Virus record (IMG/VR): IMGVR_UViG_3300042516_003738
Location: 1-21,537 of that record
Direction: 5' to 3' (one strand)
Source of the DNA: a virus
Length of the DNA stretch: 21,537 bases
Numbering within the stretch: position 1 is the stretch's first letter; each line of letters begins with the position of its first letter. The notes below the pieces were generated by a model. The model worked only from the letters and a program-made list of their open reading frames with translations, searched no databases and was not told the origin of the DNA. Below are positions 369-6,824 of this stretch, in pieces. Both the position numbers and the translations under genes were made by a program.

Positions 369-536
369 ATGTTTTACGCTCTTTTCATAACATTTGTTTT
401 GAACGGTAATCCTCCTGTAGAACAGAGGTGGAAAACATATGAAACGTTTGATGAATGTTGGGAAGCAGCTACAATAATAGTAAGAGGTAGAGATAATTTT
501 ACCGCAAGATGTGTTTTAGTTGAAAGTAAAGAATGA
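369..536 (+). CDS. Very small hypothetical protein (55 aa)
   Basis: A 55-codon reading frame from ATG at 369 to TGA at 534-536, starting 4 bases after the previous gene and overlapping the next by ATGA. The N-terminus (MFYALFITFVLNG) is hydrophobic, like a short signal or anchor. The rest contains a W-K-T-Y-x-T-F-x-E-C-W-E-A-A stretch and a later F-T-A-R-C, giving two cysteines at 30 and 48. The pattern resembles small secreted phage proteins with a conserved 'YxTFxEC' core, but no function can be given. Tight coupling to both neighbours supports a real gene; the ribosome binding site is weak, so it may rely on translational coupling. Confidence 0.6.
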   Translation: MFYALFITFVLNGNPPVEQRWKTYETFDECWEAATIIVRGRDNFTARCVLVESKE

Positions 537-793
537 TTAAAACATTACTATTGGCTATTGTACTTAATGCTTCTGAATTGTCTTATTCAGAATTGGAAAA
601 ATATTATTGGGATTGTGATACATCCTTTATGAAAGGTGAACTGGGCGGGCAAGACACATGGAGTTGTCTATCTATAACGGAAGAATTTCAAAAACATTTT
701 GCCAGTCGTGAAGATTTTATGATATACTGGCACGAACATAGAATGAAGCAATGGACGGATCGTGGTTATTATCCACCTCCGGATTTTGTATAG
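533..793 (+). CDS. Small hypothetical protein (86 aa)
   Basis: An 86-residue protein whose ATG overlaps the preceding stop (ATGA). A hydrophobic N-terminus (MIKTLLLAIVLNAS) looks like a short signal sequence or membrane anchor. It is followed by an acidic, aromatic-rich body: YYWDCDTSFMKGELGGQD, SCLSITEEFQ and FMIYWHEHRM. Two cysteines (28 and 45) could pair if the protein is exported. From memory, proteins with a 'WDCDTxFMKGEL...SCLSITE' core recur as unknowns in tailed phages. No enzymatic motif is visible. The stop codon lies only a few bases before the start of the tmRNA acceptor piece, so the three small genes and the tmRNA may share a transcript. Confidence 0.7.
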   Translation: MIKTLLLAIVLNASELSYSELEKYYWDCDTSFMKGELGGQDTWSCLSITEEFQKHFASREDFMIYWHEHRMKQWTDRGYYPPPDFV

Positions 794-799
794 AATTGT

Positions 800-1140
800 T
801 GTAATCCCTTCAAAGTGAAGGCATTCTGGACGTGGGTTCGACTCCCACCTGGTCCACCAAAAACGAGATGACTCTGGATACTGTGGTCGACATACGGTAC
901 CTGAACATTAGGATAATAGGTAGTCCTAGTCCGTTTTTGAGGGGCCAGACCTGGTTTCGACAGGGTGAGATAGTGGAGAAGGCAACACGGTAGGCGATGA
1001 CCGTAAATCAAGCAAATAAAGTAACCGCAAATGACAGCGAGTACGCTCTAGCAGCTTAAGCTCTAGATGAGGTTTCGCAAGGTGTGCCTTATAACCAAAA
1101 CACCTTGCACCGATTCATTAGAGATATTTAATGAATATCA
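800..1140 (+). ncRNA. ssrA: Circularly permuted (two-piece) tmRNA
   Basis: The 3' acceptor half lies upstream of the 5' coding half, as in permuted tmRNAs of alphaproteobacteria, some betaproteobacteria and cyanobacteria. Acceptor piece: T-arm GTGGG-TTCGACT-CCCAC (832-848), acceptor strand CTGGTCC (849-855), then ACCA with encoded CCA at 857-859. Coding piece: GGGCCAG (942-948) pairs with 849-855 at all seven positions (one G-U), followed by CCTGGTTTCGAC, the tmRNA D-loop-like motif. AGGGTG (962-967) pairs with CATTCT (822-827) as the inter-piece P2 helix. The resume codon GCA is at 1027 and the tag reads ANDSEYALAA with TAA at 1057-1059, close to the E. coli tag ANDENYALAA. Downstream stems GCAAGGTGT/ACACCTTGC (1077-1108) and ATTCATTA/TAATGAAT (1113-1136) fit later tmRNA domains. 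Outer ends are estimates. Role: ribosome rescue and protein tagging by trans-translation. Confidence 0.9.
860..941 (+). other. Intervening segment removed between the two tmRNA pieces
   Basis: In permuted tmRNA genes the RNA between the CCA end and the 5' piece is processed out. Here the segment would begin and end with complementary strands: AAAAACG (859-865, overlapping the CCA end) can pair with CGTTTTT (932-938), stacking near the acceptor stem and presenting the precursor as one closed structure for end processing. A smaller hairpin TAGGA/TCCTA lies inside. No protein gene is visible. Confidence 0.65.
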
Positions 1141-1730: not shown

Positions 1731-2291
1731 ATGCGTTTTTTAATTTTATTAACTAGTTTTGTATTTGCTTTATTTTTATACACATTTGCAGCTGCATTTT
1801 CAAGTGTAGAAATACCGACAAAGTTAAATGTTAAACTTACAGATTTAAATAAAACAGCCAGACAAGAAGTAGAATGTTTGGCACAAAACATCTATTTCGA
1901 ATCAGCTAAAGAACCAGTTGAGGGACAAATTGCTGTTGCGTTTGTCACTTATAATAGAATGAAGAGTGGACAATTTCCAAACACGTATTGTGATGTTGTA
2001 AAACAAAAAACATATTTTGAAAGATATGTAGTTTGCCAATTTTCTTGGTATTGTGAGGACAAACCTCTGGCGATATTGAAAAATAAAGGCTTGACAACAC
2101 ACAACAATGCGTTGTATAATAACATTGTTAATCTATCTTTGAATTTTTATTTGAACCATAAAAATATGAAAGATCCTACCAAGGGTGCCTTGTATTATCA
2201 TGCCGATTATGTTTCACCCGGTTGGCCAAACATGAAAAGGACTGCTTACATTGGAAGGCACATTTTTTACAACAAAGTTAAACATGCTTAA
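1731..2291 (+). CDS. SleB-type cell wall hydrolase (likely endolysin)
   Basis: A 186-residue protein with an N-terminal hydrophobic segment (about residues 3-23; signal peptide or signal anchor) followed by a SleB/Hydrolase_2 domain. Visible family features: ECLAQNIYFES (49-58) with the likely catalytic glutamate at 57, the helix EGQIAVAFVTYNRM (64-77), FPNTYCDVV, QFSWYCE (103-109) and ALYYHADYV (153-161). This family cleaves the glycan strands of peptidoglycan, as in spore cortex SleB and CwlJ-like enzymes. The N-terminal segment suggests export by the host Sec system, as for signal-arrest-release endolysins, which would reduce dependence on a large-hole holin. TAGGAG precedes the ATG. The next gene encodes a one-TM protein and could be a lysis partner (inference). 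Confidence 0.85.
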   Translation: MRFLILLTSFVFALFLYTFAAAFSSVEIPTKLNVKLTDLNKTARQEVECLAQNIYFESAKEPVEGQIAVAFVTYNRMKSGQFPNTYCDVVKQKTYFERYVVCQFSWYCEDKPLAILKNKGLTTHNNALYNNIVNLSLNFYLNHKNMKDPTKGALYYHADYVSPGWPNMKRTAYIGRHIFYNKVKHA

Positions 2292-2580: not shown

Positions 2581-2853
2581 ATGGCAGTACAACAATTATC
2601 AGTAAATGTTTTGTCGAATCCGAAAGATAGAGAGACTTTTCTTGGTGCTCTAAAAGAATGTTCGGATTCGATGACAAGAATGGAAGCAGAAAAAGATTTG
2701 ATTCGTGAAGTGATTGCAACTACTTCAAAAAATTTGCAGTTACCTAAAAAGATCGTATCGAAAATGGTTAAAGTTTATCATAAACAAAATTATGATGAAG
2801 AAGTCGCTACACATGAACAATTTGAAACTCTTTACGAAACGGTGGTAAAATGA
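2581..2853 (+). CDS. dsbA: DsbA-like double-stranded DNA-binding protein
   Basis: A 90-residue protein, nearly the length of T4 DsbA (89 residues). The C-terminal half, with KMVKVYHKQNYDEEVA and FETLYETVVK, lines up with the 'LYHKDN...E.E...LYDTVF' region of T4 DsbA as I remember it. T4 DsbA is a phage dsDNA-binding protein linked to late transcription; it is unrelated to the thiol oxidase of the same name. Context supports the call: in T4 the neighbouring order is dsbA-33-59-32, and here gp33, gp59 and gp32 follow in the same order with a few inserted genes. TTAGGAG precedes the ATG. The gene overlaps the next by ATGA. Confidence 0.75.
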   Translation: MAVQQLSVNVLSNPKDRETFLGALKECSDSMTRMEAEKDLIREVIATTSKNLQLPKKIVSKMVKVYHKQNYDEEVATHEQFETLYETVVK

Positions 2854-3215
2854 AATATACATTTACATGTGAAGATATTGGTACTGAATGGAAAAATTCT
2901 GTCGAGTTTCAAGCAATTCAAGTCGATGATATCATGCAAAACTTTAAGTACTTTTTGAAGGGATGTAGTTTCGATTCAGATTTGGTAGAATCTAGATTTG
3001 CAGATGAAGATGTTGAGTTAAATTTTGAAGAATACTTTCCTGAAGAAGATAACTCGGATGCAGTTATGAAGTTTACGGTTGATTCTTTATCTTCATGGCC
3101 AAAATCATACCAAGTTACTTCATCCGCCGATGATTGTCCAAAATGTAAAATTCCTATGAACATAATTTATCGTCATGGTTGTTTAGATCCTAATTGCAAA
3201 CATAATGCCAACTAA
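2850..3215 (+). CDS. Hypothetical protein with C-terminal zinc-ribbon-like motif
   Basis: A 121-residue acidic protein starting inside the stop of the dsbA-like gene (ATGA). The N-terminal region reads MKYTFTCEDIG followed by an F-Q-A-I-Q-V-D-D-I-M-Q-N-F-x-x-F-L-K-G-C stretch, a pattern I associate with small phage unknowns. The C-terminus has C-P-K-C (residues about 98-101) and, some 14 residues on, C-L-D-P-N-C, a four-cysteine arrangement that could bind zinc. It sits between the DsbA-like gene and gp33, two genes that are adjacent in T4, so it is either an insertion or a lineage-specific partner in late transcription or DNA binding. No function is assigned. Confidence 0.7.
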   Translation: MKYTFTCEDIGTEWKNSVEFQAIQVDDIMQNFKYFLKGCSFDSDLVESRFADEDVELNFEEYFPEEDNSDAVMKFTVDSLSSWPKSYQVTSSADDCPKCKIPMNIIYRHGCLDPNCKHNAN

Positions 3216-3429
3216 AGATGAAATGTTAAAGTTTGCCAAATCCATAGAATCTATGGTTGCAAACACAGATTACAATTACATTGAAGCTATTGTTGAACAT
3301 TGTAAACAAACTGGTCTAGAAATAGAAGTTGCAGCTTCTCTCATCAATCAAAATCTGAAAGCGAAGATTGAAAATGAAGCGATGAATAACAATTTACTCA
3401 AAGTGAAAACCAATCAATTACCTATATGA
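3205..3429 (+). CDS. 33: Late transcription coactivator, gp33-like
   Basis: A 74-residue protein. The block YIEAIVEHCKQTGLEIEVAA with the following SLINQNLKAKI matches the phage late-transcription coactivator family (gp33-like) found in T4-like phages of aquatic bacteria. In T4, gp33 binds the RNA polymerase beta-flap and, with the gp55 sigma factor and the gp45 sliding clamp, turns on late genes. It is shorter than T4 gp33 (112 residues), as usual outside the T4 group. The start overlaps the previous gene by 11 bases and no strong ribosome binding site is seen, which suggests coupled translation. The place between dsbA and 59 is that of T4. The TATAAATA-like boxes in this window would be the expected targets of the complex. 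Confidence 0.75.
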   Translation: MPTKDEMLKFAKSIESMVANTDYNYIEAIVEHCKQTGLEIEVAASLINQNLKAKIENEAMNNNLLKVKTNQLPI

Positions 3430-4025
3430 TTACTGGTTATGAGGCCTTTGGAATATATAATGCACTCAAACTACATTTTACACAAGAATCGTATGATTAC
3501 TTTAAGTACAATGGTAAAACCAATATTAGTTTGAGTTCGTTTGAAAATCGTAAAGATAAATGGCATTTCACAAAATTATCAAAGAAATTTAATGATAAGG
3601 AAGAGTTGATTTTTTTCATTGTATCTAATCTTTTACAGAATGATAAATTTTGGATAGGAGATTTACTGGCAGAAGATTCAGACGTTAGATATTTGAGTCG
3701 AAAAAAAGTTTTACAGTCATTATCTTATTTTTTCGAAAATGATTGTAAAAAGATTTTTGAAGGCATTACAAATCCAAATGAATTGATTTTAGTAACTAGT
3801 GGAGATCATCCTAAATTACTGAAGTCTTTTATGAGAAAAGAAATTGAAATAGAAACTCTCTGTTTGTTAGACTCTATTTTAAATTTCGTTCCTATGTGGA
3901 AACAGAAAATAAAAGACGATATAGTATGGCCAAATCATAGGTTGAAAATCGTAAAGTATAGAGATTTTTTACCGAAAGACAAGACCAAATTTAAAGTAAT
4001 TTTAAGGAAGATCATAAATGCATAG
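3426..4025 (+). CDS. 59: Loader of replicative helicase, gp59-like
   Basis: A 199-residue protein (T4 gp59 has 217). The N-terminal motif ITGYEAFGIYNALKLHF, then YDYFKYNGKTN, is characteristic of gp59, and a basic C-terminus follows. In T4, gp59 binds forked DNA and gp32 and loads the gp41 hexameric helicase on the lagging-strand template, linking recombination intermediates to replication. The start overlaps the gp33 stop by ATGA. In T4 the next gene is 32; here four genes are inserted before gp32. The last 8 bases overlap the D-Ala-D-Ala peptidase gene. Confidence 0.88.
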   Translation: MITGYEAFGIYNALKLHFTQESYDYFKYNGKTNISLSSFENRKDKWHFTKLSKKFNDKEELIFFIVSNLLQNDKFWIGDLLAEDSDVRYLSRKKVLQSLSYFFENDCKKIFEGITNPNELILVTSGDHPKLLKSFMRKEIEIETLCLLDSILNFVPMWKQKIKDDIVWPNHRLKIVKYRDFLPKDKTKFKVILRKIINA

Positions 4026-4914
4026 ATTAATACCATTAGTAATTTTATTCTTTTGTTTCTCAGTAAACGCCAAAGAGAAAAAACGCAGACCAGTTGATCC
4101 TCGTGAACCAGCTATTATACATTATGATGTGTCTGAAGATAGAGTTCTTTATAACAAGAACATAAATCAAACCAGACCGATAGCAAGCATAACGAAATTG
4201 ATGACTGCTATGGTTGCACTAGACTATAGTACGAATATGAAGAGAGAACTATCTTTAGTTGTAAAAGTTAGTTCTAGTTTACCTCGAAAAACTTATAAGA
4301 GAGGTGAACTATTCGAAGCTATGTTAATTCGTAGTGACAATGCAGCAGCGGAAACTTTAGCTAATGATTATCCTGGAGGTAGAAAAGCCTTTATTGAAGA
4401 AATGAATAATAAGGCTTTGAGATTGGGTATGTCAACAACAGTTTTCAGGGATCCAACAGGGTTAAACAATAACAACGTTTCTACCGCAACAGAAGTTGCT
4501 GATATGGTTAAAGCTGCATCCACTTATCCTTTAATACTAAACACTAGTATTAAGAAACAAACTTATATTGAAACAAAATATAAGAAGAAGGTTAGAACGA
4601 TTATGTTGACAAACACCAATCGTGCCATATTGTTTGAGTTTGATAATGTGATTGTAAGTAAAACTGGATATACAACACCGGCAGGGTTTTGTGTTGCTAT
4701 TATGGTAGAACAAAAGAAAAAGAAATTGAAGGAACAAGAAAATTATGGACTAATGGAATATTTTATGGGTAAACCTGGTCCTAAAGACGAAACTGTGGTA
4801 AACAAACATGTAATTGTCATTTTAGGAGCTAAAAACCCTAAAGAAAGAGTTGACACCGTAAAAGAAATAATGTATAATAATGTTATAGATCAAGATTTGG
4901 AAGAAGTAAAATGA
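4018..4914 (+). CDS. D-Ala-D-Ala carboxypeptidase/endopeptidase, S11 family (low-molecular-weight PBP type)
   Basis: A 298-residue serine peptidase of the penicillin-binding fold. A signal peptide (MHRLIPLVILFFCFSVNA, residues 1-18) directs it to the periplasm. All three active-site motifs are intact: S57-I-T-K60 (nucleophile and base), S106-D-N108, and K215-T-G217. RDPTGLNNNN (144-153) also fits the S11 family (DacA, PBP7/PbpG-like). Such enzymes trim the terminal D-alanine or cut peptide cross-links in peptidoglycan. No C-terminal amphipathic anchor like that of PBP5 is evident, which leans towards a PBP7-like endopeptidase. AAGGAAG upstream is a good ribosome binding site. It sits between gp59 and gp32, which are adjacent in T4, so it looks like an acquired gene. 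The role may be lysis, wall remodelling or superinfection interference. Confidence 0.88.
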   Translation: MHRLIPLVILFFCFSVNAKEKKRRPVDPREPAIIHYDVSEDRVLYNKNINQTRPIASITKLMTAMVALDYSTNMKRELSLVVKVSSSLPRKTYKRGELFEAMLIRSDNAAAETLANDYPGGRKAFIEEMNNKALRLGMSTTVFRDPTGLNNNNVSTATEVADMVKAASTYPLILNTSIKKQTYIETKYKKKVRTIMLTNTNRAILFEFDNVIVSKTGYTTPAGFCVAIMVEQKKKKLKEQENYGLMEYFMGKPGPKDETVVNKHVIVILGAKNPKERVDTVKEIMYNNVIDQDLEEVK

Positions 4915-5904: not shown

Positions 5905-6795
5905 ATGTCTAGTTTTGCAAATCTCAAACGCAATCGCAGTTCTTTGGAAAAACTAACCAAAGCGATTGAATCAACTACTCAAACAACCGAATCAAACTCA
6001 AAAGACGATAATCGATTCTGGCAACCATCTGTCGATAAAGCAGGTAATGGTATGGCAGTTATTCGTTTTCTTCCCGCACCAGCTGTTGATGGTGATGAAG
6101 GATTGCCTTGGGTTCGTATTTTTCACCACGGATTTCAGGGACCAGGCGGTTGGTTAATTGATAACTGTTTAACTACAGTAAACGAAAAGTGTCCAGTGTG
6201 CGAACACAATTCAACACTATGGAATTCTGGTGTAGAAGCTAACAAAGATATTGCACGTAAGCAAAAACGTAAACTATCTTATATCGCAAACGTTTATATC
6301 GTTTCTGATCCTAGCAATCCAGAAAATGAAGGTCAAATCAAACTATTTAAGTTTGGTAAAAAGATTTTTGATAAGATTACAGAAGCAATGAATCCAGAAT
6401 TCGCTGATGAAACTCCTGTAAATCCTTTTGACCTTTGGGAAGGTGCTAACTTCAAATTGAAGATGCGTAACGTAGAAGGCTATCGTAATTATGATAAATC
6501 AGAATTTGCTGATAAGTCAGCACTTCTTGATGGTGATGATGAGAAACTTGAAAATCTTTGGAAGAGTGAGTTCTCACTAAAAGAATTTACTGAGAAGAAA
6601 CACTTCAAGTCTTATGACCAACTCAAATCTCGCCTCGATAAGGCTCTAGGTTTTGAATCTGTTGCACCGAAAACTAAAGCTGAAGATTTTGTTGCGAAAA
6701 CTTCTCCTGACTTGGAAGAAGCATCATCATTTAATACTTCTGGTATTGATGATGACGATTTGGATTATTTCAAATCACTCGCTGAACAAGACTAA
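5905..6795 (+). CDS. 32: Single-stranded DNA-binding protein gp32
   Basis: A 296-residue orthologue of T4 gp32 (301 residues). The N-terminal K-R-N-R-S-S (8-13) matches the basic LAST motif used for cooperative self-interaction. The core OB domain includes FWQPSVDKAGNGMAVIRFLP and WVRIFHHGFQGPGGW. The likely zinc ligands are a histidine at 74 or 75 and cysteines 88, 96 and 99 (NEKCPVCEH), as in T4. The C-terminus is strongly acidic (IDDDDLDYF), the tail that T4 gp32 uses to contact replication partners. It coats ssDNA in replication, recombination and repair and works with gp59. A good ribosome binding site and a repeat-bearing leader precede it; a strong terminator follows. Confidence 0.95.
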   Translation: MSSFANLKRNRSSLEKLTKAIESTTQTTESNSKDDNRFWQPSVDKAGNGMAVIRFLPAPAVDGDEGLPWVRIFHHGFQGPGGWLIDNCLTTVNEKCPVCEHNSTLWNSGVEANKDIARKQKRKLSYIANVYIVSDPSNPENEGQIKLFKFGKKIFDKITEAMNPEFADETPVNPFDLWEGANFKLKMRNVEGYRNYDKSEFADKSALLDGDDEKLENLWKSEFSLKEFTEKKHFKSYDQLKSRLDKALGFESVAPKTKAEDFVAKTSPDLEEASSFNTSGIDDDDLDYFKSLAEQD

Positions 6796-6799
6796 AAGA

Positions 6800-6824
6800 A
6801 AACCCACCGAAAGGTGGGTTTTTT
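6800..6824. terminator. Rho-independent terminator, probably bidirectional
   Basis: AAACCCACC-GAAA-GGTGGGTTT (6800-6821) is a nine-pair stem with a GAAA tetraloop followed by TTT on the plus strand. On the minus strand the same hairpin is followed by TCTTTT. It lies between the convergent ends of gp32 and the minus-strand muramidase-like gene, whose stop codon (6823-6825) is in the T-tract. It should end transcripts from both sides. Confidence 0.9.

Follow-up and report, generated by a model that had tools for sequence, protein, structure and literature searches.

A conserved two-piece tmRNA gene of beta-like type upstream of gp32 in a T4-like phage

Two-piece tmRNAs encoded by phages have been described before. 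The T4-like phage Melnitz was reported to have one by Buchholz and co-workers (PMC9004378), and in that 2022 work 53 of 133 unique phage tmRNA structures were two-piece, 50 of the 53 being aquatic. A tmRNA database from 2025 holds 79 phage sequences (PMC11915505). Mycobacteriophages (Bxz1 and others) and Bacillus phage G also carry ssrA; these are unrelated phages, and the two-piece form is not reported for them in the paper concerned (PMC4131195). The tmRNA-like RNA of mycobacteriophage DS6A has a phage-encoded tRNA-like domain, as does the gene described here. In contrast to that gene, however, it has no tag reading frame and is an inhibitor. In bacteria, the two-piece tmRNA of Caulobacter functions in trans-translation, according to work cited in a review (PMC3985003); the same review considers RNase P and tRNase Z the likely processing enzymes of two-piece tmRNAs.

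We found that a 21,537-base virus record, a genome fragment referred to here as the window, contains a complete, beta-like, circularly permuted (two-piece) tmRNA gene on the plus strand, from 791/797 to ~1124. The Rfam model RF01850 (beta_tmRNA) matched positions 746-1117 with 147.3 bits (gathering threshold 84, E 1.3e-45), and RF04321 (tmRNA_permuted) matched 797-1059 with 145.4 bits (gathering threshold 47, E 3.8e-29); lower-scoring overlapping clan matches were omitted from the scan. The best subtype model was the beta model. ARAGORN also called a permuted tmRNA, with the tag ANDSEYALAA, and found no further tRNA or tmRNA gene in the 21,537 bases. The original prediction had called this region a permuted tmRNA, to be dropped if every permuted model scored below threshold. 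Both scores are far above gathering, and the acceptor stem, P2, T-arm, CCA and tag that it described are all present where it had placed them. Its span of 800-1140 has the right locus and needs correction at both ends: conservation is sharp from ~791-797 and ends near 1117-1124. The gene is not the first of its kind among phages. The original prediction had implied rarity, which is at odds with the 53 two-piece phage tmRNAs already described, that of T4-like Melnitz included.

The acceptor piece (797-859), the intervening segment (860-941) and the coding piece (942-1124) follow one another in one gene. The parts, all on the plus strand, are as follows, with the evidence for each in parentheses.
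797-859: acceptor piece, that is, the aminoacylated 3' piece, with an encoded CCA at its end (Rfam alignment, ARAGORN 3' tRNA domain, onset of conservation)
822-827: 3' strand of P2, CATTCT, partner of AGGGTG at 962-967 (Rfam, ARAGORN, covariation)
832-848: T-arm, GTGGG-TTCGACT-CCCAC, stem 832-836/844-848 (ARAGORN, covariation)
849-855: 3' strand of the acceptor stem, CTGGTCC, partner of GGGCCAG at 942-948 (sequence, covariation)
857-859: encoded CCA (sequence)
860-941: intervening segment, 82 nt, between the CCA and the coding piece
942-1124: coding piece, that is, the 5' piece, 3' end approximate (Rfam, ARAGORN, conservation, pair counts)
983-987: CAACA, forming the second inter-piece helix with TGTTG at 797-801 (Rfam structure)
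1027-1059: tag frame including the stop, ANDSEYALAA (ARAGORN)
1067-1108: putative H-type pseudoknot 3' of the tag (pair counts)

The coding piece holds the 5' strand of the acceptor stem, the D-loop analogue, the 5' strand of P2, the inter-piece helix, the tag frame (GCA AAT GAC AGC GAG TAC GCT CTA GCA GCT TAA) and the pseudoknot. The encoded tag ends in a degron of the hydrophobic Ala-Ala kind. The acceptor stem has seven pairs. The third, G944-U853, is equivalent to G3-U70, the pair read by alanyl-tRNA synthetase. P2 has six pairs, two of which are G-U.

The helices were evaluated in viral permuted tmRNAs from isolates and from IMG/VR, which was scanned once with a sequence pattern and once with gp32. 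Among the matches listed there were at least 114 such tmRNAs (called by ARAGORN) with at least 64 distinct stem sets, a sample of viral diversity that is biased because the pattern was built on a motif of the window itself. In 64 listed stem sets, the fraction fully paired was 0.98 for the acceptor stem, 0.91 for P2 and 1.00 for the T stem, compared to 0.20, 0.38 and 0.35, respectively, when partners were swapped. The G-U at the third acceptor pair was present in all 64 of these stem sets. Because ARAGORN itself selects for pairing, we recounted with a fixed structure in 18 relatives aligned without regard to structure; this count is not fully independent, since ARAGORN also supplied those rows. 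In the recount, 90.5% of cells were paired, compared to 46-51% with the strands slid, and 22 pairs were altered on both sides. The covariation score was 0.309, compared to 0.128 after shuffling and at most 0.084 with slid strands. P2 was paired in 100% of cells and the second inter-piece helix in 95.6%. Across the viral stem sets, covariation is strong in the acceptor, P2 and T helices. In the same 18 relatives, the hairpin after the tag (1077-1085/1100-1108) had changes on both sides in eight of nine pairs. The stem that crosses it (1067-1072/1087-1092) was 76% paired and had no double changes, and a pseudoknot formed by this stem is weakly supported.

Tags ended in ALAA in 71 of the 114 viral tmRNAs among the matches listed, and nearly all ended in AA. 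Some tags were much longer than 10 residues. Those of L010, L036, L043, L060, L073, L099, L105, L114 and L116 have ~28-31 residues of the form ANADTFDFSAMSFTGNTV...ALAA. The ARAGORN-predicted tags of four viral tmRNAs of cyanobacterial type (L004, L031, L065 and L118) end in ATV or ATA rather than AA. Such endings, which depend on the stops that ARAGORN predicts, may alter the degradation signal.

The intervening segment contains a helix at the predicted processing site. AAAACG at 860-865 pairs with CGTTTT at 932-937, and four nucleotides (UGAG) then lead to the coding piece. The segment varies in both sequence and length among relatives, and the placement of the helix is kept. In 86 distinct viral sequences among the matches listed, the best helix had a mean score of 20.5, compared to 11.2 (maximum 12.1) when 3' ends were swapped between viruses, and it started mostly at the same two positions. 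Double changes were found in three of its five pairs in the 18 aligned relatives. Alpha-type bacterial genes had a helix likewise placed in nine of 10 cases, with a small excess over swapped partners. The helix at 860-865/932-937 probably serves tRNA-type processing; it would keep the two predicted cleavage sites close to each other for RNase P and a 3' nuclease. Its conservation is consistent with the predicted cleavage into two RNAs.

The virus is T4-like and related to Kyanoviridae. Downstream of the tmRNA gene, on the same (plus) strand, are the following neighbours.
1731-2291, plus strand: cell wall hydrolase (PF07486)
2581-2853, plus strand: T4 DsbA-like regulator (PF11126)
3205-3429, plus strand: gp33-type late transcription regulator (phrog_254)
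3426-4025, plus strand: gp59-type helicase loader (phrog_269)
4018-4914, plus strand: D-alanyl-D-alanine carboxypeptidase (Peptidase_S11, PF00768), adjoining the gp33-gp59 genes
5905-6795, plus strand: gp32-type single-strand DNA-binding protein (phrog_224)

A deoxynucleotidase gene is also listed between the carboxypeptidase gene and gp32. Past gp32 are tail genes, baseplate genes, the gp2 DNA end protector and a TnsA-like nuclease that is likely to belong to the head completion type. T4 core homologues are in the typical order (gp33, gp59, gp32, gp2, gp5, gp25, baseplate/tail), and homologues of gp2, gp5, gp25, gp32, gp33 and gp59, together with further baseplate and tail proteins, bear out the earlier assignment to the T4-like phages. 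By gp32 and gp25, cyanophages and Pelagibacter phage HTVC008M come nearest among the isolates, with identities mostly of 42-56%, and megablast gave no near-identical isolated phage. A TTGCCA/TATACT promoter-like site lies near the gene at 699-728, and such sites were no more common than in shuffled sequence. Between a small upstream ORF and the tmRNA gene is an 86-aa ORF without a family match (533-793, plus strand). In the tmRNA loci L063 and L125, nothing separates the upstream ORF from the start of the tmRNA. Compared with these two, the window therefore has an additional gene precisely where the tmRNA unit begins on its 5' side.

The slot occupied by the tmRNA gene is conserved. We compared 18 viral relatives with gp32 at least 77% identical and at least 7 kb of sequence upstream of gp32; some of these contigs (for example, L141-L143) may be copies of one virus. 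A permuted tmRNA was found upstream of gp32 on the same strand in 15 of the 18, 11 by ARAGORN and four more by Rfam. In the other three, ARAGORN and Rfam found no permuted tmRNA in the sequence covered. A match to gp33 was present in eight of 12 larger viral records, and all eight have the tmRNA upstream of it on the same strand. The two-piece tmRNA of this freshwater-type, T4-like phage is a real gene, conserved in a large phage group. Variovorax phage V45v66, which has the closest DsbA homologue among isolates (35% identity), had no tmRNA in the 24 kb surrounding the gene for it, and Pelagibacter phage HTVC008M had no annotated tmRNA within 5 kb upstream of gp32.

Methylophilales phage Melnitz (MZ577097) has its tmRNA in the same slot, with gp33, gp59 and gp32 downstream as in the window. 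Both the kind of gene and its slot were therefore already known, from Melnitz and from the 2022 counts of phage tmRNAs. The two loci differ in other respects. The Melnitz tmRNA is alpha-type (RF01849, 106.7 bits), whereas that of the window is beta-type. In Melnitz a glutamine riboswitch follows the tmRNA, whereas Rfam found no riboswitch in the window. Each has a cell wall hydrolase gene within a few kb, upstream of the tmRNA in Melnitz and downstream of it in the window. We also observed both types upstream of gp32 elsewhere: the tmRNAs of L173 and L181 best match the alpha model, and those of L170 and L172 match the beta model, near threshold. The type of tmRNA therefore changes within one phage group.

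The betaproteobacterial two-piece tmRNAs (RF01850; for example, those of Rhodocyclaceae and Accumulibacter) are also similar to the window gene. They share with it the order of the pieces, the stems, the AGGCNTTCTGGACG motif, a tag of the form ANDxxxALAA and the hairpin after the tag. In contrast, their sequence identity to the window gene is at most 72%, and their intervening segment is ~29 nt (17 calls in the bacterial group) compared to 82 nt in the window and a viral median of 81 among the matches listed. With the beta model, typical bacterial members score 240-336 bits and some others 157-169, compared to 147 for the window.

The original prediction suggested capture of the gene from a host with the permuted form, a candidate origin on which the following results bear. 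The nearest 15 sequences among the matches listed were all viral (87-99% identity), and the best bacterial permuted gene was 72% identical. Of 399 genomes sampled from the bacterial order, only 16 (~4%) had a beta-type permuted tmRNA above cut-off. As a guide to the host, base composition gave no match: the window has 32% G+C and is unlike every beta-type locus sampled (40-69%). In addition, we found permuted tmRNAs, unannotated in the records, in Pseudomonas phage SM1 (L202, 1477-1897) and Acinetobacter phage BUCT628 (L204, 550-883). The tmRNAs of Pseudomonas aeruginosa and Acinetobacter themselves are one-piece; that is, phages of hosts with a one-piece tmRNA can carry the permuted form. In trees of 172 and 99 sequences, bacterial beta genes fell between viral groups. 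An AU test on 157 columns rejected neither viral monophyly (p 0.445) nor monophyly of the bacterial beta genes (p 0.253). One reading of the direction of transfer is that T4-like phages are an old reservoir of two-piece tmRNAs, alpha or beta by branch, in a fixed gp33-gp59-gp32 slot, and that the bacterial beta-type genes came from phages. We consider this unlikely, but give it some weight because the beta type is in ~4% of the bacterial genomes and a permuted tmRNA in 15 of 18 phage relatives, and because the best tree places bacterial rows between those of viruses.

An SmpB gene was found in none of the 12 related viral records and none of three isolate genomes; the window itself is a 21.5-kb fragment, and an SmpB gene may be present in another part of this phage's genome. 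The same search was positive in 10 of 14 control genomes. These results suggest that SmpB of the host is used, and the phage presumably relies on it.

We hold with high confidence that a T4-like lineage has kept a working two-piece tmRNA that is processed, charged by the host, tags proteins and rescues ribosomes. Anatomy, helices, covariation, conservation and locus were computed directly; for processing, charging, use of SmpB and benefit, we infer the following course. A single precursor transcript would contain the acceptor piece, the intervening segment and the coding piece. The helix in the intervening segment would stack on the acceptor stem, from which a small internal loop, with the CCA side opposite UGAG, would separate it. 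Cleavage by RNase P at G942 and by a 3' endonuclease after the CCA ending at 859 would excise the intervening segment, and the two RNAs would stay joined through the acceptor stem, P2 and the second inter-piece helix. Host alanyl-tRNA synthetase would charge the RNA through the G3-U70 equivalent, and host SmpB and EF-Tu would deliver it to ribosomes that have stalled because their mRNA is broken, compatibility with the host factors being assumed at both steps. Translation would resume at the GCA at 1027 and append ANDSEYALAA, a normal degradation tag, and tagged fragments would go to the host's proteases. The most likely benefit to the phage would be that ribosomes are kept circulating during destruction of host DNA and mRNA. 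The role suggested in the original prediction, ribosome rescue and tagging, is likely.

It is also conceivable that the RNA is a decoy, a mimic of tRNA that titrates SmpB and blocks trans-translation by the host, comparable to the DS6A tmRNA with only a tRNA domain. The phage RNA of DS6A inhibits endogenous tmRNA (PMC11915505, PMC4131195), and the related phages (12 viral records, three isolates) gave no SmpB of their own. A decoy would have no need of an mRNA half, however, and here that half is intact and conserved, with its resume codon, a 10-codon tag ending in ALAA and the hairpin. Because of this tag frame we consider a decoy improbable. A recent, accidental capture from the phage's own host, without a role in the phage (for example, as a by-product of integration at ssrA), might account for beta being the best Rfam subtype, and some bacteria with the beta type do exist. 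But the nearest relatives among the matches listed are viral (87-99%, compared to 72% for the best bacterial gene), the locus is conserved in 15 of 18 relatives, the helices covary within the viral set, and no integrase was found among the window genes tested. We regard such a capture as a poor explanation. That the region is a degenerate gene or a chance fold merely resembling a tmRNA has a negligible probability. Nothing in its favour was found, and this candidate was rejected on sequence grounds: the E value is 1.3e-45, every stem pairs, and covariation is above every control.

Together with its relatives, the gene extends the known phage two-piece tmRNAs by a conserved set with good support and ties this set to one fixed position in the genome plan of T4-like phages. 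The helix at the predicted processing site is open to experiment. Two questions become testable: why lytic phages keep a ribosome-rescue RNA of their own, and whether the rare two-piece tmRNA of beta type passed from phages to bacteria or from bacteria to phages.

Two other RNA elements were seen. In crAssphage cr60_1 (L203), the annotated tmRNA was below every Rfam tmRNA cut-off, and near it, at 228-329, is a RAGATH-20 RNA (122.4 bits). In the window, a hairpin, AAACCCACCGAAAGGTGGGTTTT, lies between convergent genes at 6800-6822. It gave a weak match to sroH in Rfam, below cut-off, and is probably a two-way terminator.
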